Below, one piece after another: positions 51,173 through 59,325 of a stretch of 64,000 nucleotides of DNA. Source of the DNA: Marinospirillum alkaliphilum DSM 21637 (GTDB taxonomy: Bacteria; Pseudomonadota; Gammaproteobacteria; Pseudomonadales; Halomonadaceae); assembly GCF_900119735.1 (NCBI RefSeq), contig NZ_FPJW01000001.1, positions 282,914 through 346,913 of the forward strand, read 5' to 3'. Below the pieces are notes generated by a model, which was given only the letters and a program-made list of their open reading frames with translations, was not told where the DNA came from and made no database searches. The first letter of the stretch is position 1. Each line of letters starts with the position of its first letter. The translations under genes were made by a program, and so were the position numbers.

Positions 51173-51862
51173 ATGAACAGAGCAAAAATCACCGTGGTGC
51201 TGGTTGAGGATGATCCGGCAGTCCGTCAGCGTTTTAAAGCCTCCATCAATCGCCACCCAGAGCTGGAGTGGGTTGGTGAGGCAGCCAATGTGCGCGATGG
51301 TAAAGCGCTGGTGCTGGAAGCTTGCCCGCGTGTGTTGTTGGTGGATCTGGGGTTGCCGGATGGTTCAGGTCTGGAAGTGATCAGTGAAGTGGCACGCAAA
51401 CTGCCGGAAACGGAAATCATGGTGGTCAGCATGTTTGGTGATGAAGGCCATGTGATCCAGGCCATTGAGGCAGGGGCCAGTGGTTATATCCTGAAGGACA
51501 CGGATGATGCCAGCCTGGCTGAACACATCATCCAGCTGTGTGATGGTGGCAGCCCGATGAGTCCGATGATTGCCCGCCACCTGCTGAAGCGCATGCATCA
51601 GGGCAGTCAGAGCAGCAGTTACACCACCACCAGTGGTGAGCAGTTGGATGGTATTGCACTGACGCCAAGAGAAATGCAGCTGTTAAAACTTTTGGCACGG
51701 GGTTACACCTATCGTGAAGTGGCTGAAGATCTGGCGGTATCCAGTCACACGGTTAACTCCCACATCAAAAACCTCTATCGCAAGCTGTCGGTGAATACCA
51801 AAAACGAAGCGGTTTATGAGGCGACCCGCCAGGGGTTGTTGGATATCAGGACGCTGGGCTGA
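51173..51862 (+). CDS. NarL/LuxR-type response regulator
   Basis: A 229-residue two-component regulator. The receiver has E12/D13/D14, the phosphoacceptor D58 in VLLVDLGLPDGSG, and a conserved lysine in GYILKDTDD. The output domain is a LuxR/GerE HTH: LTPREMQLLKLLARGYTYREVAEDLAVSSHTVNSHIKNLYRKL. The partner kinase starts six bases after the stop, so they are co-transcribed. Targets are unknown; the membrane-protein genes just downstream are candidates. Confidence 0.93.
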   Translation: MNRAKITVVLVEDDPAVRQRFKASINRHPELEWVGEAANVRDGKALVLEACPRVLLVDLGLPDGSGLEVISEVARKLPETEIMVVSMFGDEGHVIQAIEAGASGYILKDTDDASLAEHIIQLCDGGSPMSPMIARHLLKRMHQGSQSSSYTTTSGEQLDGIALTPREMQLLKLLARGYTYREVAEDLAVSSHTVNSHIKNLYRKLSVNTKNEAVYEATRQGLLDIRTLG

Positions 51863-51867
51863 TACCC

Positions 51868-53073
51868 ATGGCTGGCAGCACATCACCAACCTTGAGCCGT
51901 ATCAATCACTACTGGCAGCGTTTTGTCAGTTGTAATGGCATTTTTACGCCTGAGCACCGGGATTACCGCCGTGCTTACCTGATTAATGCCATGTTGCTCG
52001 CTTCACTGTGCAATTTTGGTACTTTTGTACTGCTCAACTTTCTGGTGTTTGATCTGCTGGCGCCGGGCTTGTTGAATCTGGTTGCTTTCATTGGTGCCGC
52101 ATTCACCCTGCTTTATTTTCAGCGCAGCCGTAACATCATCCGGGGTGGTTTTTACACCACCCTGATCATCGGTTTGGCGCTGGTTGCTTACCTCTATATC
52201 GAACAGCATTATCAGTACAGCCTGTTCTGGCTGGCCACTTTCCCACCTTTTGCCTACTTTCTGAACGGCCTCAAACGCGGCAGCTGGTCTATTCTGCTGG
52301 TGTTTCTACCGGTTTACCTGCTGATGCTGACGGGGTTGGATCGCTGGGAGGCTGCACCCTGGACGATTGTTTCCCTGGCCAATGTTGTGATTGCTTCTTT
52401 TGCTTTAACCGCACTGGTGTTTTTTTATGAAAAAAGCCGCCACCAGGCCAGTAGTCAGTTACAACGCAGCAAGGAAAGAGAAGCTACCGCACGGGAACGC
52501 AATCGTCTGCTGCGAGAGATGCATGATGGTCTTGGCGCACAGCTGACCTCAGCGCTTTATGCGGCTCGCAGTCAGCAAGTCAGTGTGGAGGAGATGGCTG
52601 ATTATTTGCAGTTGGCGCTGGAAGACCTGCGCATGATGATGGACTCCTTGCAGACCTTTGATGGCGATGTGGCCACCCTGCTGGGACAGTTGCGCTATCG
52701 CATGGAGCGCCGTTTGCAGGCGGCTGGACTAAAGCTGGTATGGAAGGTTGATGACCTGCCAGACTTGCCTGAAATGACTCCCCAGAATGCATTGAACCTG
52801 CAGCGCATTGTTCAGGAATCACTGATCAACGTGATCAAACATGCCCAGGCCAGTGAAGTGGAGCTGGTGGCACGGTTAAAGGATCGTCAGACACTGCAGA
52901 TCAGTATCACCGATAATGGCTGTGGTTTTAACCTTCAGGATGATGCCAGCGGCCGGGGATTAAGTAACCTGCATCACCGGGCGACTGAACTCCAGGCTGA
53001 ACTCAGCATTCGGACAGCAACAACTGGCAAGGGCACCCGTGTGCTGCTTACAATACCGGTCCGACGCCCCTGA
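51868..53073 (+). CDS. Membrane histidine kinase (HisKA_3 family)
   Basis: A 401-residue sensor. The N-terminal 180 residues contain about six hydrophobic helices in closely spaced pairs with little periplasmic sequence, suggesting sensing within the membrane (compare the DesK or 7TMR types). A coiled linker follows, then the HisKA_3 phosphorylation site H219 in LREMHDGLGAQLTSALYAARS and an HATPase domain with LQRIVQESLINVIKHAQASE, ITDNGCGF and GRGLSNLHHRATELQAE. It pairs with the upstream NarL-type regulator. Ligand unknown. Confidence 0.92.
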   Translation: MAGSTSPTLSRINHYWQRFVSCNGIFTPEHRDYRRAYLINAMLLASLCNFGTFVLLNFLVFDLLAPGLLNLVAFIGAAFTLLYFQRSRNIIRGGFYTTLIIGLALVAYLYIEQHYQYSLFWLATFPPFAYFLNGLKRGSWSILLVFLPVYLLMLTGLDRWEAAPWTIVSLANVVIASFALTALVFFYEKSRHQASSQLQRSKEREATARERNRLLREMHDGLGAQLTSALYAARSQQVSVEEMADYLQLALEDLRMMMDSLQTFDGDVATLLGQLRYRMERRLQAAGLKLVWKVDDLPDLPEMTPQNALNLQRIVQESLINVIKHAQASEVELVARLKDRQTLQISITDNGCGFNLQDDASGRGLSNLHHRATELQAELSIRTATTGKGTRVLLTIPVRRP

Positions 53074-53090
53074 CACGGATGTATTTTGCA

Positions 53091-53122
53091 CATGAGTAAA
53101 CAACAGCATGAGTAAACAACAG
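53091..53122 (+). repeat. Sixteen-base tandem duplication covering the start codon of the next gene
   Basis: CATGAGTAAACAACAG occurs twice in direct succession (53091-53106 and 53107-53122). The unit contains ATG-AGT-AAA-CAA-CAG, so the start codon is duplicated 16 bases apart, in a different frame. The first copy opens a seven-codon frame (MSKQQHE) that ends at TAA 53113-53115, overlapping the second ATG. Confidence 0.9.
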
Positions 53123-53464
53123 AAAGACACTGCCTCCGGTTACACACCAACCTTTACCTCTTCCGGTTCAGCCTTGCGCACCCTGCGCACTGGCAAGAGC
53201 AATCCTAACTGGCAAGCGGCTGCTGAGTTCCTGCTGGAGCGGGCAGCACCAGATGTAAGGTTATTGGTGGAGGCGGCAACCCAGATCCAGATGGAAAAGG
53301 ATGGCTTAAAAACCGATCGTCGTGAACTGGCGGTACGTAAAAAAAGTTTCAGCCTGAACCTTAATCTGGGTTGGCTGCAATGGCTGTTGATTGCTGCGGC
53401 TGGGGTGGGGTTTATCGCCCTGCTAGCCTGGATTGCCCAGAATGCAACGCTCAGGGCCTGCTAG
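53108..53464 (+). CDS. Small membrane protein with one C-terminal helix, function unknown
   Basis: A 118-residue protein of no family I recognise. Residues 1-85 are polar, with FLLERAAPDVRLLVEAATQIQMEKDGLKTDRRELAVRKKS forming a probable helix and basic stretch (key residues E44, R45, D49, K68, R71, R72). One hydrophobic helix follows at about 93-112 (LQWLLIAAAGVGFIALLAWI), so it is probably tail-anchored in the inner membrane with its N-terminus in the cytoplasm. It lies 34 bases after the kinase gene. The start lies in the second copy of a 16-base duplication and has no clear ribosome site of its own. Confidence 0.7.
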   Translation: MSKQQKDTASGYTPTFTSSGSALRTLRTGKSNPNWQAAAEFLLERAAPDVRLLVEAATQIQMEKDGLKTDRRELAVRKKSFSLNLNLGWLQWLLIAAAGVGFIALLAWIAQNATLRAC

Positions 53465-53490
53465 GAAACCGCTGATTAACTACTTTGCTG

Positions 53491-53538
53491 GCTTATGCCG
53501 TCTTGCACGCTTCTAGTGCATGATTTTGCAAGATAAGC
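53491..53538 (+). repeat. Bulged hairpin between the small membrane protein gene and the Slam-like gene
   Basis: GCTTA (53491-53495) and TCTTGCA (53501-53507) pair with TGCAAGA (53527-53533) and TAAGC (53534-53538): a twelve-base-pair stem with a five-base bulge on one side. A second small repeat (TGCAC/GTGCA) overlaps. It is followed 22 bases later by TTTTTATT. It may terminate the kinase operon or control the next one. Confidence 0.45.
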
Positions 53539-53691
53539 TGCGTATTAAAAGAGTGTTTTTATTCTCCAACTGCGTCACATAACTTTTCATTGCCCCGCTA
53601 TTTCTGCTCCACTATCCTTTCAGTCAAGTGCGAGTTTATCGCCAGTATTATGGATCTATTCTCATCGCTGATCAGGGTTGCAGGGGGCAGC

Positions 53692-55032
53692 ATGCTCGTT
53701 CGAAACACACTTTCAGCAGCATCCGGGTTGAGTGGCAGGTTGCTGTTTTGTCTGGTTTTGCTTTTTTCGGTACAGGTCCAGGCTGATGCTGCCAGGGCCC
53801 TGCAGCAATTGAACCAGGAGCAACAGTTTCAGGCAGCTTATGAGCTGGGCTTGAGGCAGCTTGCCCACGAAGCTGGACGACCAGCATTCGACATGGCGTT
53901 TGGTGTGGCGGCACTGGAAAGTGGTCATTACGATCAGGCGTTGTTTGCCTTTGAACGGGTGTTGATGGTTAACCGCAATGCGCCCTTGCCACGCCTGGAG
54001 CTGGCACGCACTCATTTTATGATGGGTAACCTGATTGCCGCCCGCCGTCACTTCAACCAGGTCCTTGAACAAGATCCACCCCCACCACCAGCCGTTGCTC
54101 GACGTATTCAGTGGTTTCTGAACGCTATAGATCAGCGTGAAGCAGGGCGTGCCGTGGCGGCCAGCGATATGTCAGCGCGTTTTCATCTGGGTATTCGATT
54201 GGGTCATGATAGTAATCCGCGCAATATGACCCATCAGGATGTGCTTTTATTTGGTGCTTTGTTATTGGATTTGCCGGAACCTGAATCAGATACCTTTCAC
54301 GAGGTTTTTGGTGGTGTCACCTTCTTTCAACAAAGAGCGGAAAGCTGGGGCTGGTTTATGGGTGGTGATTTGAGTTTGCGCACCTATCACGACCAATCAG
54401 AAATGAATGCCACCAATTTTAATCTGCGTGGCGGCCCGATTTTTCTGGGCACCCATTGGCGCTTGGTGTTACCGCTGCAGCTGGGTTTTCAGGTGCGCAG
54501 TGATGACAACCGTACCGAGTTAAAGTCTCTTGCCGCCGAATACACCCGACGGATCGATGCTGCACGCGATTACACCCTGTTCGGGCAATTAGCGAAAGTG
54601 GATCATGAGCCGGGTGGTGCTTTGCGTGATGTAGACACCTTTACTGCTGGTTTTATCTATTCACTGCGCCCCATGGAGCAACTGAGACTTTATTTGGGCC
54701 CGGTGTATGGTAATGAAAACGCCAGTGATGAAGGTCCACACTTTGGGCGTAGCTGGTATGGCCTGCGATCAGGTGCAGGATATGCCCTGAATGAACAACA
54801 GCGACTGGATTTCAACCTCAGCCACATCCGTGCCCGGCATAAAGCCGAAGACCCCGTTTTTCTTGAGCGGCGCACTGACAACCAGACCAGTTACGGTGTG
54901 AATTTTACTCATCGAGCTGCCAATAACATGCAACTGGAACTTGGCTTACAGCAAAGTGGAAACGACTCGAACATGAATCTTTATACTTATAACCGTACCC
55001 AACTGACAGCGGGTATCAGGAAAGAGTGGTGA
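53692..55032 (+). CDS. Slam-like outer-membrane protein: TPR region plus beta barrel (DUF560 type)
   Basis: A 446-residue exported protein. A signal peptide (LLFCLVLLFSVQVQA, cleaved before D near 32) precedes two or three TPR-like helix pairs (about 35-140: ALFAFERVLMVNRNAPLPRLELARTHFMMGN), then a C-terminal region (about 165-446) of alternating strands ending in TQLTAGIRKEW, with the terminal aromatic typical of outer-membrane barrels. The order TPR then barrel, and the length, fit the Slam (surface lipoprotein assembly modifier) family, which moves specific proteins across the outer membrane. ATG 53692 follows AGGGGG. Its stop is 5 bases before the FecR gene, the likely cargo. Confidence 0.75.
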   Translation: MLVRNTLSAASGLSGRLLFCLVLLFSVQVQADAARALQQLNQEQQFQAAYELGLRQLAHEAGRPAFDMAFGVAALESGHYDQALFAFERVLMVNRNAPLPRLELARTHFMMGNLIAARRHFNQVLEQDPPPPPAVARRIQWFLNAIDQREAGRAVAASDMSARFHLGIRLGHDSNPRNMTHQDVLLFGALLLDLPEPESDTFHEVFGGVTFFQQRAESWGWFMGGDLSLRTYHDQSEMNATNFNLRGGPIFLGTHWRLVLPLQLGFQVRSDDNRTELKSLAAEYTRRIDAARDYTLFGQLAKVDHEPGGALRDVDTFTAGFIYSLRPMEQLRLYLGPVYGNENASDEGPHFGRSWYGLRSGAGYALNEQQRLDFNLSHIRARHKAEDPVFLERRTDNQTSYGVNFTHRAANNMQLELGLQQSGNDSNMNLYTYNRTQLTAGIRKEW

Positions 55033-55037
55033 GCAGT

Positions 55038-56426
55038 ATGAACAAATTTTATAAGCATTATGGGCTGACTTTGCTATTGCTGATACTGCTGGCCTGCTCA
55101 GGATCCGTACTGGCCCAGCCGCAGGAGGTTGGGCGTATTCTGATGGCCACCACTGGTGTGACGGCCCAGCAACCGGGGCAGGCACAGCGTGAGCTGGCAC
55201 GCCGCTCCCCGGTGTTTGTGGGTGATACCCTTCGCACCCCGGAAGGTGGGCGTGCCCAGTTGCGTATGGCTGATGGCGAAATGATCTCTTTGACGGCCAA
55301 CAGCCAGTTGGTGATTGAAGCCTTCAAACACCAGCCTGATGCACCGGCTGCCGATGATGCCAGCGTCAAGCGTCTGGTCACCGGAGGCCTGCGCACCATC
55401 ACCGGTGCTGTGGGTGGTGAAGGCTACCGGGTGGAAAGCCGGGCAGGGACCATCGGCATCCGGGGCACCGCCTTTGAAGTGTTCAGTGAACAGGGTAATA
55501 ACCTGTTTGTCAGAACCCAGCGCGGCAATATTTATGTTCAGAACCGTTTTGGTCGGGTAGAAATCGGGGTGGATATGCCGCAGCGGGCTGCACAGATCCT
55601 GAGTGTCAACCAGCCACCGGTAGCCATTCCGCAGCGTGATTTACCAGACTTCTTTGACAATGCCTTTGAAGAAGACGTGACTTTAGGGCTGGCAGGAGAG
55701 CAGGAAGAGCAACCCGCTGATCGGGTGGAAACGCCAGTGCCGAGAACACCGGGGCCGATGTTGGCATCATTGCTGACTGGGGATACAGAGAATTACGCGG
55801 GCTTGGTGGCTGTTATCTCGCCTGGGCCTTATGGTTTTGTGGTTGGAGGTGGTTATGGTGGGGCTTTTTTCAGTAGCTCAATAACCAGTACTGAGAATCA
55901 GGTTTCAGGCTCTGGTGGCACTGACATATTCAATTTACAGTCAGTCAACAGCTTTGATTTGTGGGTGGAATCACGTGAGCCCAGGCTTATTGGGGACTCG
56001 CAAGTCGAGTGGGGAAACTGGGCAACGGGTACAATTAACGGTCAGCAGGAAGAAAACTTCTCGTTTGCCTGGGTAACAGCAACACAGGTACATACCACTT
56101 TAGCTACCTTACCTTCTGTCGGGTCTTATGAGTACACGCTTGTTTCTAGTGGATATATTGTTGATGGCACATTAGATGTTAATTTTCTAACGGGATCCAT
56201 TGATGTTTTTCTTCAGGAAGATGGTGGTGAGTGGAAGGGGCTTGGTACAGTCAGGCAGTTTTATGGTAGCGGTATCCAGCTAACAAGTGGTGATGGTAGC
56301 GGCATGATTACTGGCCGTTTTGTTGGCTCTAATGCGGAGGGTGCTATTGCTGCTTATGACCTTGCAGGTGAGCAGGGTATAGCTGTATTCGATCGCACTG
56401 AATCAGGTGCAGCAACAGGCCCATGA
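55038..56426 (+). CDS. Secreted FecR-domain protein with a TbpB-like C-terminal barrel
   Basis: A 462-residue exported protein. The signal region LLLLILLACSGSVLAQPQ allows a lipoprotein reading (LLAC box, lipidated at C20) or cleavage after VLA. Residues about 30-150 are a FecR domain: VFVGDTLRTPEGGRAQLRMADG and YRVESRAGTIGIRGTAFEV. A proline/glutamate linker (about 210-245) leads to a strand-rich, glycine-rich C-terminus whose end, SGMITGRFVGSNAEGAIAAY then EQGIAVFDR, resembles the closing strands of TbpB/fHbp-type barrels, the usual Slam cargo fold. It overlaps the cyclase gene by four bases. FecR domains normally act in periplasmic signalling, yet no sigma factor is present here. Confidence 0.78.
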   Translation: MNKFYKHYGLTLLLLILLACSGSVLAQPQEVGRILMATTGVTAQQPGQAQRELARRSPVFVGDTLRTPEGGRAQLRMADGEMISLTANSQLVIEAFKHQPDAPAADDASVKRLVTGGLRTITGAVGGEGYRVESRAGTIGIRGTAFEVFSEQGNNLFVRTQRGNIYVQNRFGRVEIGVDMPQRAAQILSVNQPPVAIPQRDLPDFFDNAFEEDVTLGLAGEQEEQPADRVETPVPRTPGPMLASLLTGDTENYAGLVAVISPGPYGFVVGGGYGGAFFSSSITSTENQVSGSGGTDIFNLQSVNSFDLWVESREPRLIGDSQVEWGNWATGTINGQQEENFSFAWVTATQVHTTLATLPSVGSYEYTLVSSGYIVDGTLDVNFLTGSIDVFLQEDGGEWKGLGTVRQFYGSGIQLTSGDGSGMITGRFVGSNAEGAIAAYDLAGEQGIAVFDRTESGAATGP

Positions 56427-58639
56427 GCCCTCGTAACGCTCACCTTTTTGCCACGCTGGCTGGTCTGTTACTGACCGGCCTGTTGTTGCTTGCCCAGTCC
56501 GGCTTTTTGCCCACCTTCACCCGCTTGTATGAACGTTTTGAGCTGCTGGCTTATGACCTGCGCATGCAGTGGCATTTACCGAGTGAGGTGGCACCGGCTG
56601 CTGCATCCATTGTTATTGTGGATATTGATGAGGCGTCACTGGGGGTGGAGGGGCGTTGGCCCTGGTCACGGGCACGCATTGCAGACCTGGTCATGGCTTT
56701 GCATGAAGCCGGTGCCGCAGTGGTTGCCTTTGACGTGCTGTTTGGTGAGCCGGAGCGTAATCCGGCTGTGGAAGTGCTGGCCGGGCTGGAAGGTCAGGAT
56801 GTAGCGGAGCTGCAACAGCAGTTGAAGGCATTGCTTCCCCGTTATGATGCCGATTTGCGTCTAGCGGAAGCCTTACAACAGGCTGAAGTGGTGCTGGGTT
56901 ACGTGTTTCATCATCAGGAGTCCAGCGGGACTGGCCAATTACCCGAATCGCTGCAGCTGGCTGAAGTGGATCCTGCCCGGCTTGTATTACCGCAGTTGCC
57001 GGGTTATGCCGCTCCATTAGCGGTGTTGATGGAACAGGCTGCCGGTGCCGGTTTTTTCAGTCTGGCACCGGATGCTGATGGTGTGGTTCGTCGGGCACCG
57101 ATGCTGGCACGCCATGAAGATCAGTTGTATCCATCTCTTTCCCTGCAGACCTTGCGACAATTCATGTTTCTGGAAGAAGTGGCATTGCGTACCGCACGCA
57201 TTGCTGATCGGGATCACATTGAACACATTCTTCTGGATAATGCCCTGGCATTACCAACCGACAGCAGTGGCCAGCTATTAATTCCCTATCGTGGGCCTGC
57301 AGGAAGTTTCCCGTATCTACCCGCCTGGGAGGTTCTGGCTGGTATCACTGATCCCGATCTGCTGGAGGGAGCAATCGTGCTGGTGGGTACCAGTGCTCCT
57401 GGCCTGTTTGATCTGCGCAGCACACCGGTGGATGCGGTTTATCCCGGTGTCGAAGTGCATGCCAATCTGTTGGCTGCCATGCTGGATCAGCAATTTCTGC
57501 AACAGCCTTCCTGGGCTCCGGGAGCCAATCTGATGATCACCCTGGTGGCTGGATTACTGCTGGCTTTGTTGTTGCCCTGGTTAAATCCGGTCTGGCAGCT
57601 GTTGAGTGGTTTGATGGTGGCAGGTGTGTTGCTGGGATGGGTGAGTTGGTTGTGGGTGGAGCAGGGTGTGGTGCTGGCACTGGCAGGCCCCTTGTTCATG
57701 GTGCTGGTCCTTTCAACGTTCAACTTTGTCTGGGGCTTCTTTTATGAGTTCATGACTCATCACCGCCTGGCAAACATGTTTGGCCAGTATGTGCCGCCAC
57801 AACTGGTGGAGGAGATGAGTCGTCATCCTGCCGCTTTTAATTTTGACGGCGAGTCTCGGGAGATGAGTGTGCTGTTTTCCGATATTCGCGGATTCACCAC
57901 CTTGTCAGAATCTCTGGCAGCCGATGAGCTGAAGCGCCTGCTGAACCGTTACTTTACACCCATCACCGGCATCATTTTTGATCACCGGGGTACCATCGAC
58001 AAGTACATTGGTGATCTGGTGATGGCTTTCTGGGGTGCGCCAATCAATGATCCCGAGCATGCCCGTCATTCCATTGAGGCTGCCATGGATATGCTGCAAG
58101 CGACGGAACGACTGAGTGCTGAGTTTGTCGCTGAAGGGCTACCGGCGATCAGTGTTGGTGTTGGTATCAATTCCGGTGTGATGAATGTGGGTGACATGGG
58201 CTCAACCTACCGCCGCGCTTATACAGTGCTGGGTGATGCCGTGAATCTGGCATCACGCCTGGAAGGCACCACCAAGTATTATGGTGTCAGTCTGGTGGTG
58301 GGTGAGCGTACCCGCGAACTGGCACTGGAACATTTTGTCTGGCGCGAGCTGGATCTGGTGAAGGTGAAGGGCAAGGTGCATCCGGTGCGGGTGTATCAGC
58401 CGGTATGCCCGGTGGCTCAGGCCACTCCGGAACTGGAGCAGGAGCTGCAGCAGTTGGATCAAGCCTTGAAGCTATTTCGTTCCAGGGAGTGGGATCAGGC
58501 CGAGCTGGCTTTCAGTGCATTGCAGCAGCAGCACCCGAAAGAGCATCAGTATGTGCTGTACCTGGAGCGCATCGCCCAGCTGCGCAGTGAACCGCCTGCT
58601 GAAGACTGGGACGGCAGTTGGGTCAGAACAGAGAAATAA
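56423..58639 (+). CDS. CHASE2-domain class III adenylate cyclase
   Basis: A 738-residue inner-membrane protein. One N-terminal helix (about 8-28), a large periplasmic CHASE2 sensor (about 40-345: VIVDIDEASLGVEGRWPWSR, VAFDVLFGEPER, GAIVLVGTSAPGLFDLRSTPVDAVYPGVEVHAN), three helices (about 370-440), and a catalytic domain (about 465-650). Metal aspartates are D487 in VLFSDIRGFT and D531 in IDKYIGDLVMAFWG; K527 and the threonine of YTVLGDAVNLASRLEG fit ATP rather than GTP, and the Asn and Arg of NLASR stabilise the transition state. It should therefore be an active cAMP producer. It is translationally coupled to the FecR gene. Confidence 0.93.
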   Translation: MSPRNAHLFATLAGLLLTGLLLLAQSGFLPTFTRLYERFELLAYDLRMQWHLPSEVAPAAASIVIVDIDEASLGVEGRWPWSRARIADLVMALHEAGAAVVAFDVLFGEPERNPAVEVLAGLEGQDVAELQQQLKALLPRYDADLRLAEALQQAEVVLGYVFHHQESSGTGQLPESLQLAEVDPARLVLPQLPGYAAPLAVLMEQAAGAGFFSLAPDADGVVRRAPMLARHEDQLYPSLSLQTLRQFMFLEEVALRTARIADRDHIEHILLDNALALPTDSSGQLLIPYRGPAGSFPYLPAWEVLAGITDPDLLEGAIVLVGTSAPGLFDLRSTPVDAVYPGVEVHANLLAAMLDQQFLQQPSWAPGANLMITLVAGLLLALLLPWLNPVWQLLSGLMVAGVLLGWVSWLWVEQGVVLALAGPLFMVLVLSTFNFVWGFFYEFMTHHRLANMFGQYVPPQLVEEMSRHPAAFNFDGESREMSVLFSDIRGFTTLSESLAADELKRLLNRYFTPITGIIFDHRGTIDKYIGDLVMAFWGAPINDPEHARHSIEAAMDMLQATERLSAEFVAEGLPAISVGVGINSGVMNVGDMGSTYRRAYTVLGDAVNLASRLEGTTKYYGVSLVVGERTRELALEHFVWRELDLVKVKGKVHPVRVYQPVCPVAQATPELEQELQQLDQALKLFRSREWDQAELAFSALQQQHPKEHQYVLYLERIAQLRSEPPAEDWDGSWVRTEK

Positions 58640-58647
58640 CCTGGTGA

Positions 58648-59325
58648 CTAGTTTTCCTGCCAGGCATCGGTGTTAAACCCGGCAGCCTGGGTTGGTCCTA
58701 CAACCTTGACTTTGGTCCATAACCCGGTTGATTCCGGGAAGGCAAAGCTGCCATCGGGCTTGAGCATTTTCCAGTAGGATATGACGGTGCATGGAATACT
58801 GGGGGTGGTGAAAGTCACTGAAAGATCAACCGTCTGACCGGGTTGGGTCTCCGGTATGGCAAGTCGCTCCATGTCGGGTTTTAATCGTTCAGCGAGCTTT
58901 AATTGTTCGCCTTTGCCATAAAAAACCAGCAGGTCATCATCCTGGCAGGCCAACTGGCGATCAACCCAGGGGACGGTGCCGACATTCTGCAAGCGCCAGG
59001 TTTTGGTGAAGCGTTGTCCGGTGAGGAGCTTTTCACCATCTGGGACGGTGACATCATCTACAAAAGCACTTTGATCACCTGGCAGGGCGTGATGGGCTGC
59101 AGGTAGTTCTGTGCGTTGAAAAACCAACTGCAGCAGACGTAACGGATGGACTTCCAGCACCTGAGACAAGGCTACCAGTGTGCTCAGACTGGGATAGCTC
59201 TGGTTATTGGACCAGCATTCATACAGCGTCTGACGGCTGATGCCCGCTTGCCGGGAAAGATCCGATAGGCTCAGTTTCAGTTTTCGGCAGCGTTGCCGGA
59301 TATAGGCTTCCAGATCCTGTTCCAT
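58648..59325 (-). CDS. XRE-type HTH regulator fused to an NBR1-like Ig domain
   Basis: A 225-residue protein. Residues about 8-66 form an XRE HTH (LKLSLSDLSRQAGISRQTLY, then YPSLSTLVALSQVLEVHPLRLLQL). Residues about 80-210 resemble the NBR1 four-tryptophan Ig-like domain: FTKTWRLQNVGTVPW, then IPETQPGQTVDLSVTFTTPS, SYWKMLKPDG and GLWTKVKV. In eukaryotic NBR1 and ILRUN this domain binds proteins; in a bacterial regulator it could sense a protein partner or ligand. It is convergent with the cyclase gene, eight bases apart, and precedes nothing on its strand, so it stands alone. Confidence 0.82.
   Translation of the reverse strand: MEQDLEAYIRQRCRKLKLSLSDLSRQAGISRQTLYECWSNNQSYPSLSTLVALSQVLEVHPLRLLQLVFQRTELPAAHHALPGDQSAFVDDVTVPDGEKLLTGQRFTKTWRLQNVGTVPWVDRQLACQDDDLLVFYGKGEQLKLAERLKPDMERLAIPETQPGQTVDLSVTFTTPSIPCTVISYWKMLKPDGSFAFPESTGLWTKVKVVGPTQAAGFNTDAWQEN

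Follow-up and report, generated by a model that had tools for sequence, protein, structure and literature searches.

Slam proteins, the outer-membrane proteins of type XI secretion (T11SS), consist of an N-terminal TPR region and a 14-strand barrel, and their cargo carries Sec signal peptides, which are of the signal peptidase II type in surface lipoproteins and of the signal peptidase I type in soluble cargo. In the described systems (Slam/DUF560, PF04575), a cargo such as TbpB, factor H binding protein (fHbp), hemophilin, HrpC or NilC is encoded by an adjacent gene and ends in a barrel of the 8-strand type. The stretch of 64,000 nucleotides from Marinospirillum alkaliphilum DSM 21637 analysed here (the window), part of a genome of 3.14 Mb in 22 contigs, contains at 53692..58639 a three-gene unit with a similar layout, in which a predicted TPR-plus-barrel outer-membrane protein (gene 1) is followed by its candidate cargo with a C-terminal barrel (gene 2). 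In contrast to the known T11SS cargo, the gene 2 product has a FecR/retention-like domain in its N-terminal part, and a gene for a CHASE2 adenylate cyclase (gene 3) belongs to its neighbourhood. We give an even chance to a reading of this unit in which a Slam/T11SS-like exporter has a cognate cargo, the cargo brings a signalling domain of its own, and the pair is tied to the cyclase.

Two other systems share parts with gene 2. LapA-type adhesins are exported by type I secretion, have a LapG cleavage site and are controlled by cyclic di-GMP (c-di-GMP) through LapD, and in FecA-FecR cell-surface signalling a FecR domain relays from the outer membrane to the interior. The N-terminal domain of the retained adhesins LapA/MpAFP (NF033682, PDB 5ix9) is like the FecR part of gene 2 in sequence and fold, but here it is found with a Slam-like barrel and cyclic AMP (cAMP) instead of type I secretion and c-di-GMP. 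With FecA-FecR the unit shares the FecR domain, whereas it has no sigma factor or TonB receptor and its output is a cyclase.

The first-pass annotation of the window knew of no described system of this kind, and this has to be narrowed, given that the pairing of FecR with CHASE2 is in print. In the available parts of PMC9239204, a Campylobacterota cluster is described that contains a CHASE2 cyclase, a phosphodiesterase, a FecR outer-membrane protein and a TPR protein; it differs from our unit, when compared by that description, in that those parts give no Slam or barrel-cargo reading. The Burkholderia BiofilmReg operon, according to the available text of PMC5192318, has a FecR gene directly ahead of a CHASE2 receptor gene and so shows the same adjacency, but it encodes a LysM-FecR protein and a histidine kinase output, and exporter and barrel are absent from the operon as described there. 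The one FecR partner of a non-cyclase CHASE2 protein that we scanned (L205) was also a LysM-FecR protein. In the available portions of two further papers, mtxA of magnetotactic bacteria is followed by a gene for a CHASE2 cyclase, with FecR unmentioned (PMC4439547), and the targets of the cAMP regulator Clr include FecR-domain and TPR proteins (PMC5498481). On the secretion side, the terms FecR and cyclase are absent from the main texts of PMC8406197 and PMC12282271, as far as available, and PMC9090332, also available in part, deals with Slam reconstitution. The novelty claim is then limited to the combination with a Slam/T11SS exporter: no publication joining CHASE2 or FecR with Slam/T11SS (or DUF560) was found among the matches listed, which is weak evidence as the search covered few subscription journals.

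A Slam-related barrel protein and its candidate cargo

The features of the unit are as follows.

53692..55032, + strand: gene 1, member of a Slam/T11SS-related family predicted to lie in the outer membrane, ATG at 53692 and stop at 55032 (Pfam, homologues, model)
Gene 1 residues ~33-153, + strand: predicted periplasmic TPR helices (AlphaFold2 model, Pfam)
Gene 1 residues 161-445, + strand: predicted 14-strand barrel (AlphaFold2 model)
55038..56426, + strand: gene 2, ATG at 55038, FecR protein predicted to be exported, with a TbpB-type barrel at the C-terminus; candidate cargo of gene 1 (Pfam, model, linkage)
55038..55115, + strand: putative gene 2 signal peptide, residues 1-26, with VLA before the likely signal peptidase I site (by-eye reading; same-genus homologues without Cys)
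55119..55667, + strand: gene 2 FecR/LapA-retention-like domain, residues 28-210 (Pfam FecR, retention_LapA, 5ix9)
55671..55877, + strand: gene 2 disordered linker, residues 212-280, pLDDT <50 (model)
55821..56408, + strand: gene 2 TbpB/NHBA/fHbp-like C-terminal barrel region, residues 262-457, most confident at 361-450, its start overlapping the disordered stretch (model, structure matches)
56423..58639, + strand: gene 3, ATG at 56423, predicted CHASE2 adenylate cyclase, CHASE2 at residues 27-379 and cyclase at 479-652 (Pfam, CHASE2 tree)

As the first-pass annotation had noted, genes 1 and 2 are separated by 5 bases and genes 2 and 3 overlap by 4 bases; alternative in-frame starts are a TTG at 53590 for gene 1 and, possibly, a GTG at 55026 for gene 2. 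The same order on one strand was also found in the same-genus loci L068 and L069, the FecR protein of the latter lacking the barrel, and in the distant L117.

The earlier description of gene 1 as a TPR-plus-barrel protein was borne out by Pfam, which detected TPR_2 (1.1e-8) and TPR_19 (7.1e-9), and by an AlphaFold2 model (pLDDT 91.5, pTM 0.69) in which TPR helices are followed by 14 strands, counting strands 256-259 and 262-269 as one. The closest full barrels in VIA-align were CymA (Z 23.6, 3.1 Å over 273 residues) and OmpG (Z 22.3), both barrels of 14 strands, and the N-terminal part matched TPR proteins, so that the predicted model has the TPR plus 14-strand layout of Slam/T11SS. At E ≤0.01, SlipAM and TPR_Slam each matched 12 of 34 gene 1 homologues in a first set, which included the window protein, and in a second set of 69 SlipAM (PF04575) matched 41 (best 8.9e-13) and TPR_Slam 16; BBP2_2 also matched 39 of these 69, its best value (1.3e-8) being weaker than that of SlipAM. 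Slam entries were not among the PDB matches listed for gene 1, which is not evidence against the family. Taken together, sequence and predicted structure support the assignment of gene 1 to a Slam/T11SS-related barrel family. A cellulose/PNAG-type exporter was considered, given that BcsC was the top Foldseek match, and is less likely in view of the 14 strands and of CymA and OmpG ranking first in VIA; the nine recurrent neighbour families scanned included no polysaccharide gene.

In gene 2, Pfam detected FecR at residues 63-162 (4e-12). The model (pLDDT 78.3, pTM 0.48) is mostly confident in the FecR part, with 10-residue means of 68-97 over residues 31-210, and is disordered at 212-280. The FecR part resembles the LapA-type adhesin retention domain in both sequence and fold: the NCBIfam model retention_LapA matched 33 of 43 gene 2 family members at E ≤0.01, the match of the window protein being weak (E 0.002, 18.3 bits against a curated cut-off of 50), and 5ix9 was matched by the family profile (E 2.6e-5) and, in VIA, by structure (Z 10.1, 75 residues). 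The leptospiral Lsa33 model of NCBIfam matched 41 of the 43 members at E ≤0.01. Because the signal peptide was read by eye as type I and a lipobox-like pattern was present in only 3 of 63 barrel-bearing relatives, gene 2 seems to be a cargo of the soluble type and not a surface lipoprotein. A role of the FecR domain as an anti-sigma factor was rejected, since Pfam identified no sigma factor among the seven main genes from 51173 to 59325.

The C-terminus of gene 2 had been described as TbpB-like, with a closing-strand motif, and structure comparison agreed with this. The region at 361-450 is modelled with a confidence of 91-96, and the motif GRFVGSNAEG..., which begins at residue 426, runs across strands 420-429 and 435-442, the two that precede the last predicted strand (445-453). 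Foldseek searches against solved structures gave 48 matches reaching E 0.001, and all 50 matches listed were TbpB, LbpB, hemophilin/HphA or fHbp, some of them chimeras. The loose linker between the two domains keeps the whole-chain TM-scores low (0.18-0.24 by query). VIA placed the barrel near NHBA (Z 11.5, 2.5 Å over 129 residues) and TbpB (Z ~11), and the family profile matched the TbpB C-lobe 5kkx (3.7e-4) and GNA2132 (0.087), which we take to be NHBA. TbpB_B_D matched 7 of 43 family members at E ≤0.1 (best 4.9e-6), and the NCBIfam model of Slam-dependent surface lipoproteins (slam_lipo) matched 11 of 43 at E ≤0.01. The window protein alone had no match among the Pfam barrel models. A barrel hidden Markov model (HMM) matched it at 3e-16, a match that is not independent because the HMM was iterated on FecR proteins including same-genus relatives; the PDB, Pfam and NCBIfam barrel matches are independent of that HMM.

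The barrel is linked to gene 1. Named genomes were scanned with an alignment of the FecR part alone (A4), which yielded a FecR-seeded set comprising the best 80 loci of 482 relatives, and a gene 1 homologue was present in 73 of them. The barrel (by HMM) was carried by 55 of the 64 full-length FecR proteins encoded directly downstream of gene 1 versus 1 of the 17 others (Fisher 9e-10), the sole exception being L121 at a contig end. Rows cut by a locus end were excluded from this test (with gene 1, six with barrel and five without; without gene 1, one with barrel). Ten of the 17 others are encoded by short FecR genes that immediately precede gene 1; these genes are spread over nine loci, and every such locus has another, longer FecR gene after gene 1. 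Without these ten the comparison becomes 55/64 versus 1/7 (Fisher p 2e-4). At L113, one of the nine cases in which the FecR protein directly downstream of gene 1 lacks the barrel, the barrel sits on the next open reading frame. Because the 80 loci include near relatives (several of Neptuniibacter and Bermanella), the independent events are fewer than the counts.

A control set comprised 40 CHASE2-seeded and 40 FecR-seeded loci, ranked by family score and mostly with one locus per genome per set. Control FecR proteins without gene 1 nearby never carried the barrel (0/37; 33 full-length and 4 cut), and among the full-length FecR proteins other than those directly downstream of gene 1 only 2 of 35 did so, both near gene 1: the second FecR protein of L156, where the first lies between it and gene 1, and that of L160, where gene 1 is just downstream. 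All six barrel-bearing FecR proteins of the control thus had gene 1 in their cluster, but gene 1 was not always accompanied by the barrel. Several FecR-seeded control loci whose FecR was missed by the FecR model were excluded from the counts, and no barrel was found there.

The claim that the FecR protein is a Slam-type cargo is thus upheld as far as the family and barrel matches and the near-exclusive position of the barrel beside gene 1 homologues are concerned, whereas export itself is a step that we infer from them. Two observations weigh against it: the window gene 1 stayed below threshold for TPR_Slam (0.023) and SlipAM (0.081) in Pfam, and in the control the barrel was present on no more than four of the eight full-length FecR proteins encoded directly after gene 1, those without it being the first FecR of L156 and those of L166, L193 and L231 (two cut FecR proteins also lacked it). 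On balance we consider it probable that genes 1 and 2 are an exporter and its cargo.

Other proteins follow gene 1 homologues at a few loci. At L072:8195-12489 and L073:1368-7135, a gene 1 homologue and a barrel-less FecR gene are followed by two large proteins (681-963 aa) without a Pfam match; three of these four were read as lipoproteins and they are possibly other cargo. At L061:8358-10421, the gene 1 homologue is followed by a 687-aa barrel protein (9.8e-11) in which a FecR domain was not detected by the FecR model used.

Association with CHASE2 adenylate cyclases

In gene 3 both CHASE2 (1.1e-64) and Guanylate_cyc (4.2e-21) were above the Pfam cut-off, and the protein carries FSDI, DKYIGD and LGDAVNLASR, which we take to be class III active-site positions. 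The gene product is, by its sequence, predicted to be a CHASE2 class III adenylate cyclase of the inner membrane, in line with the intact active site and CHASE2 domain first read from the window.

In the DNA covered, which reached up to 9 kb on either side, CHASE2 was found at 33 of the 80 FecR-seeded loci, and 31 of these also have gene 1; a cyclase was present in 32 of the 33, the remaining locus being cut by its end, and all 33 are labelled as gammaproteobacterial or left unspecified. Conversely, among the 40 CHASE2-seeded loci, 7 had gene 1 and FecR (5 with the barrel), 9 had FecR without gene 1, and 24 had neither. At the level of whole genomes, 184 class-level genomes were scanned, of which 105 had CHASE2 and 82 had FecR. 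CHASE2 was present in all 26 genomes with a strong gene 1 match (E <1e-70, the window's genome included) versus 79 of the 158 others (p 1.2e-7), with a threshold chosen after the list was seen; at E ≤1e-15, a hand count gave 42/46 versus 63/138 (p 1.3e-8). Neither test is corrected for relatedness or genome size.

One alternative is that three unrelated genes are neighbours by chance, and adjacency in a single genome indeed proves nothing. The presence of gene 1 with FecR in 73 and of CHASE2 in 33 of the 80 FecR-seeded loci, the linkage of the barrel to gene 1 and the co-occurrence across genomes rule this out for practical purposes, and we regard it as extremely improbable.

Partner type was also reflected in a tree built from 106 CHASE2 regions and rooted at the midpoint. 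Cyclases with a nearby FecR protein of >900 aa all fell into one clade (10/10, support 1.0), 11 of the 14 non-cyclase proteins paired with FecR formed a clade of their own (1.0), and 39 of the 40 gene-1-linked cyclases lay in one 68-member clade (0.989), mixed with unlinked and FecR-only cyclases. The check across genomes proposed at the outset therefore found the gene 1-FecR pair linked to CHASE2 cyclases beyond the genus, and some functional link of exporter and cargo to the cyclase is likely.

FecR proteins of other architectures also adjoin CHASE2 genes. On contig C16 of the same genome (~41.1-43.9 kb; loci L002 and L074), a FecR protein (267 aa) and a CHASE2 cyclase are encoded, without a gene 1 match or barrel, directly downstream of a gene read as an EAL-type protein. 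At L201-L204, L207, L214, L216 and L221-L223, proteins of 972-1184 aa beside CHASE2 cyclases contain FecR and many TPRs (four of the ten were scanned). They have a long beta-rich C-terminus, from a reading of one, with no Pfam barrel match, and look like the same modules joined in a single chain.

How the cyclase may be informed

The gene content, the domain identities and the linkages of barrel to exporter and of the pair to the cyclase are solid, and a mechanism can be proposed that would join them. Gene 1 would lie in the outer membrane with its TPR helices on the periplasmic side, recognise the TbpB-type barrel of gene 2 and carry it to the surface, while the FecR/retention-like domain would stay in the periplasm or leave last. 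The retained domain would contact the periplasmic CHASE2 domain of gene 3, and the capture of a ligand or a surface by the barrel, or the completion or failure of export, would shift or release FecR and so set cAMP synthesis. Export, as said, as well as retention, the contact between FecR and CHASE2 and the direction of the signal are inferred steps.

We put forward tentatively, as possible rather than probable, that a surface barrel with a periplasmic FecR plug is read by CHASE2, such that cAMP reports on the secretion system's own surface product. By analogy, this would be a LapA-LapD-like logic rebuilt from T11SS parts and cAMP. We favour a protein with FecR inside and barrel outside because of the disordered linker, with a median of 95 residues in 63 barrel-bearing relatives (FecR end estimated by motif), and because of the likeness to LapA-type retention; such a protein would satisfy both the tracking of gene 1 by the barrel, which points to export, and the pairing of FecR with CHASE2 where no exporter is present, which points to a periplasmic contact.

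Several observations count against this proposal. The linker is shorter than 30 residues in 6 of the 63 relatives, so that spanning the pore with FecR kept inside would be hard there. A short barrel-less FecR follows gene 1 at ten loci (hand count, leaving out L059, with a broken gene 1, and L094, with the same genes as L047), and barrel export is therefore not the sole role at these loci. CHASE2-FecR pairs lacking gene 1 occur on C16 and at L165, L189 and L192, and G377, the next genome under the strong gene 1 threshold (E 9.4e-57), has no CHASE2 match. Moreover, CHASE2 was not seen in the DNA covered (up to 9 kb on either side) in 42 of 73 gene 1 loci, many loci being cut by contig ends, and the loci labelled as betaproteobacterial groups, with gene 1 and FecR, are among them. 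In view of the short linkers, the barrel-less FecR proteins beside gene 1 and the loci without a nearby cyclase, the proposal is unlikely to hold everywhere.

Those 42 loci agree with another account, in which genes 1 and 2 are an exporter and a cargo only, the FecR-barrel protein is fully secreted and the cyclase is a co-regulated neighbour that belongs to the same regulon or controls expression, with no contact between them. The same is suggested by distances, given that a FecR match lay within 1.6 kb of gene 1 for at least 29 of 31 strong gene 1 hits, whereas CHASE2 lay within 8 kb of gene 1 in at least 9 of 26 genomes (both hand counts). Against this account stand the FecR-CHASE2 pairs with cyclase and non-cyclase outputs where no exporter is nearby, the sorting of partner types on the CHASE2 tree (10/10 for the long FecR partners, 39/40 for the gene-1-linked cyclases) and the 26/26 co-occurrence in genomes, and we judge it rather unlikely, though still to be reckoned with.

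A trans-envelope sensor without export would differ from both. Gene 1 would then act in the outer membrane as a receptor or a channel, and its TPR part would signal to a gene 2 product that lies entirely in the periplasm and acts on CHASE2, in a FecA-FecR-like manner. At L048:6769-8814 and L056:6733-8709 a TPR-barrel protein of the gene 1 type has a FecR domain fused to its N-terminus, and a separate FecR protein is encoded after it; because of these fusions FecR and the TPR part appear able to work in one chain. The FecR-TPR proteins of 972-1184 aa beside CHASE2 cyclases fit such a sensor as well, and so do seven of the ten short barrel-less FecR proteins after gene 1, namely those with CHASE2 nearby (L038, L072 and L073 lack it). 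The sensor leaves unexplained, however, why a barrel of known Slam cargo is found on FecR almost only beside gene 1, and we hold it to be improbable.

Under the proposal of a surface barrel read by CHASE2 through FecR, the finding would reach beyond this unit. What CHASE2 recognises is described as not known in the available text of PMC5192318, and if its partner is the FecR domain of a surface protein that is exported, it becomes possible to test what feeds into many bacterial cyclases and kinases, CHASE2 being present in 105 of the 184 class-level genomes. Related gene sets occur in many other bacteria, where the export of proteins may be coupled to internal signalling by a route not yet described.

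Neighbouring genes and cAMP-related context

The genes upstream of the unit were identified by Pfam.

51173..51862, + strand: LuxR-type response regulator
51868..53073, + strand: MASE6 histidine kinase
53108..53464, + strand: 118-aa membrane protein

Whether these genes (51173..53464) are members of the unit is uncertain. Genes of similar sizes stand in the same order ahead of gene 1 in the same-genus L067, and a similar arrangement is seen in L068. On the other side, adjoining the cyclase gene, 58648-59325 (- strand) encodes a small protein with an HTH domain and an NBR1-type Ig domain (N_BRCA1_IG 1.7e-20). A promoter and terminator scan gave results no better than shuffled sequences, and a tblastn search of plasmids found nothing for gene 1 and, for gene 2, weak matches to the FecR region in six Ensifer records.

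Scans of the window's genome gave 4 matches for class III cyclases and 9 for cyclic-nucleotide binding. Among the recurrent neighbour families of the 80 FecR-seeded loci, of each of which one or two members were scanned, an MBL-fold family was found at 14 loci, one of its two scanned members matching class-II cAMP phosphodiesterase (5.8e-17), and GAF-HD and cyclic-nucleotide-binding proteins were found at 10 and 6 loci, respectively. Large proteins with cadherin/Big-type repeats (one scanned) follow the FecR gene at 11 of the 80 loci (L083, L085, L096, L101, L105, L128, L130, L139, L141, L147 and L152), with CHASE2 further on in 10 of the 11, and it is possible that they are adhesins under the same control.

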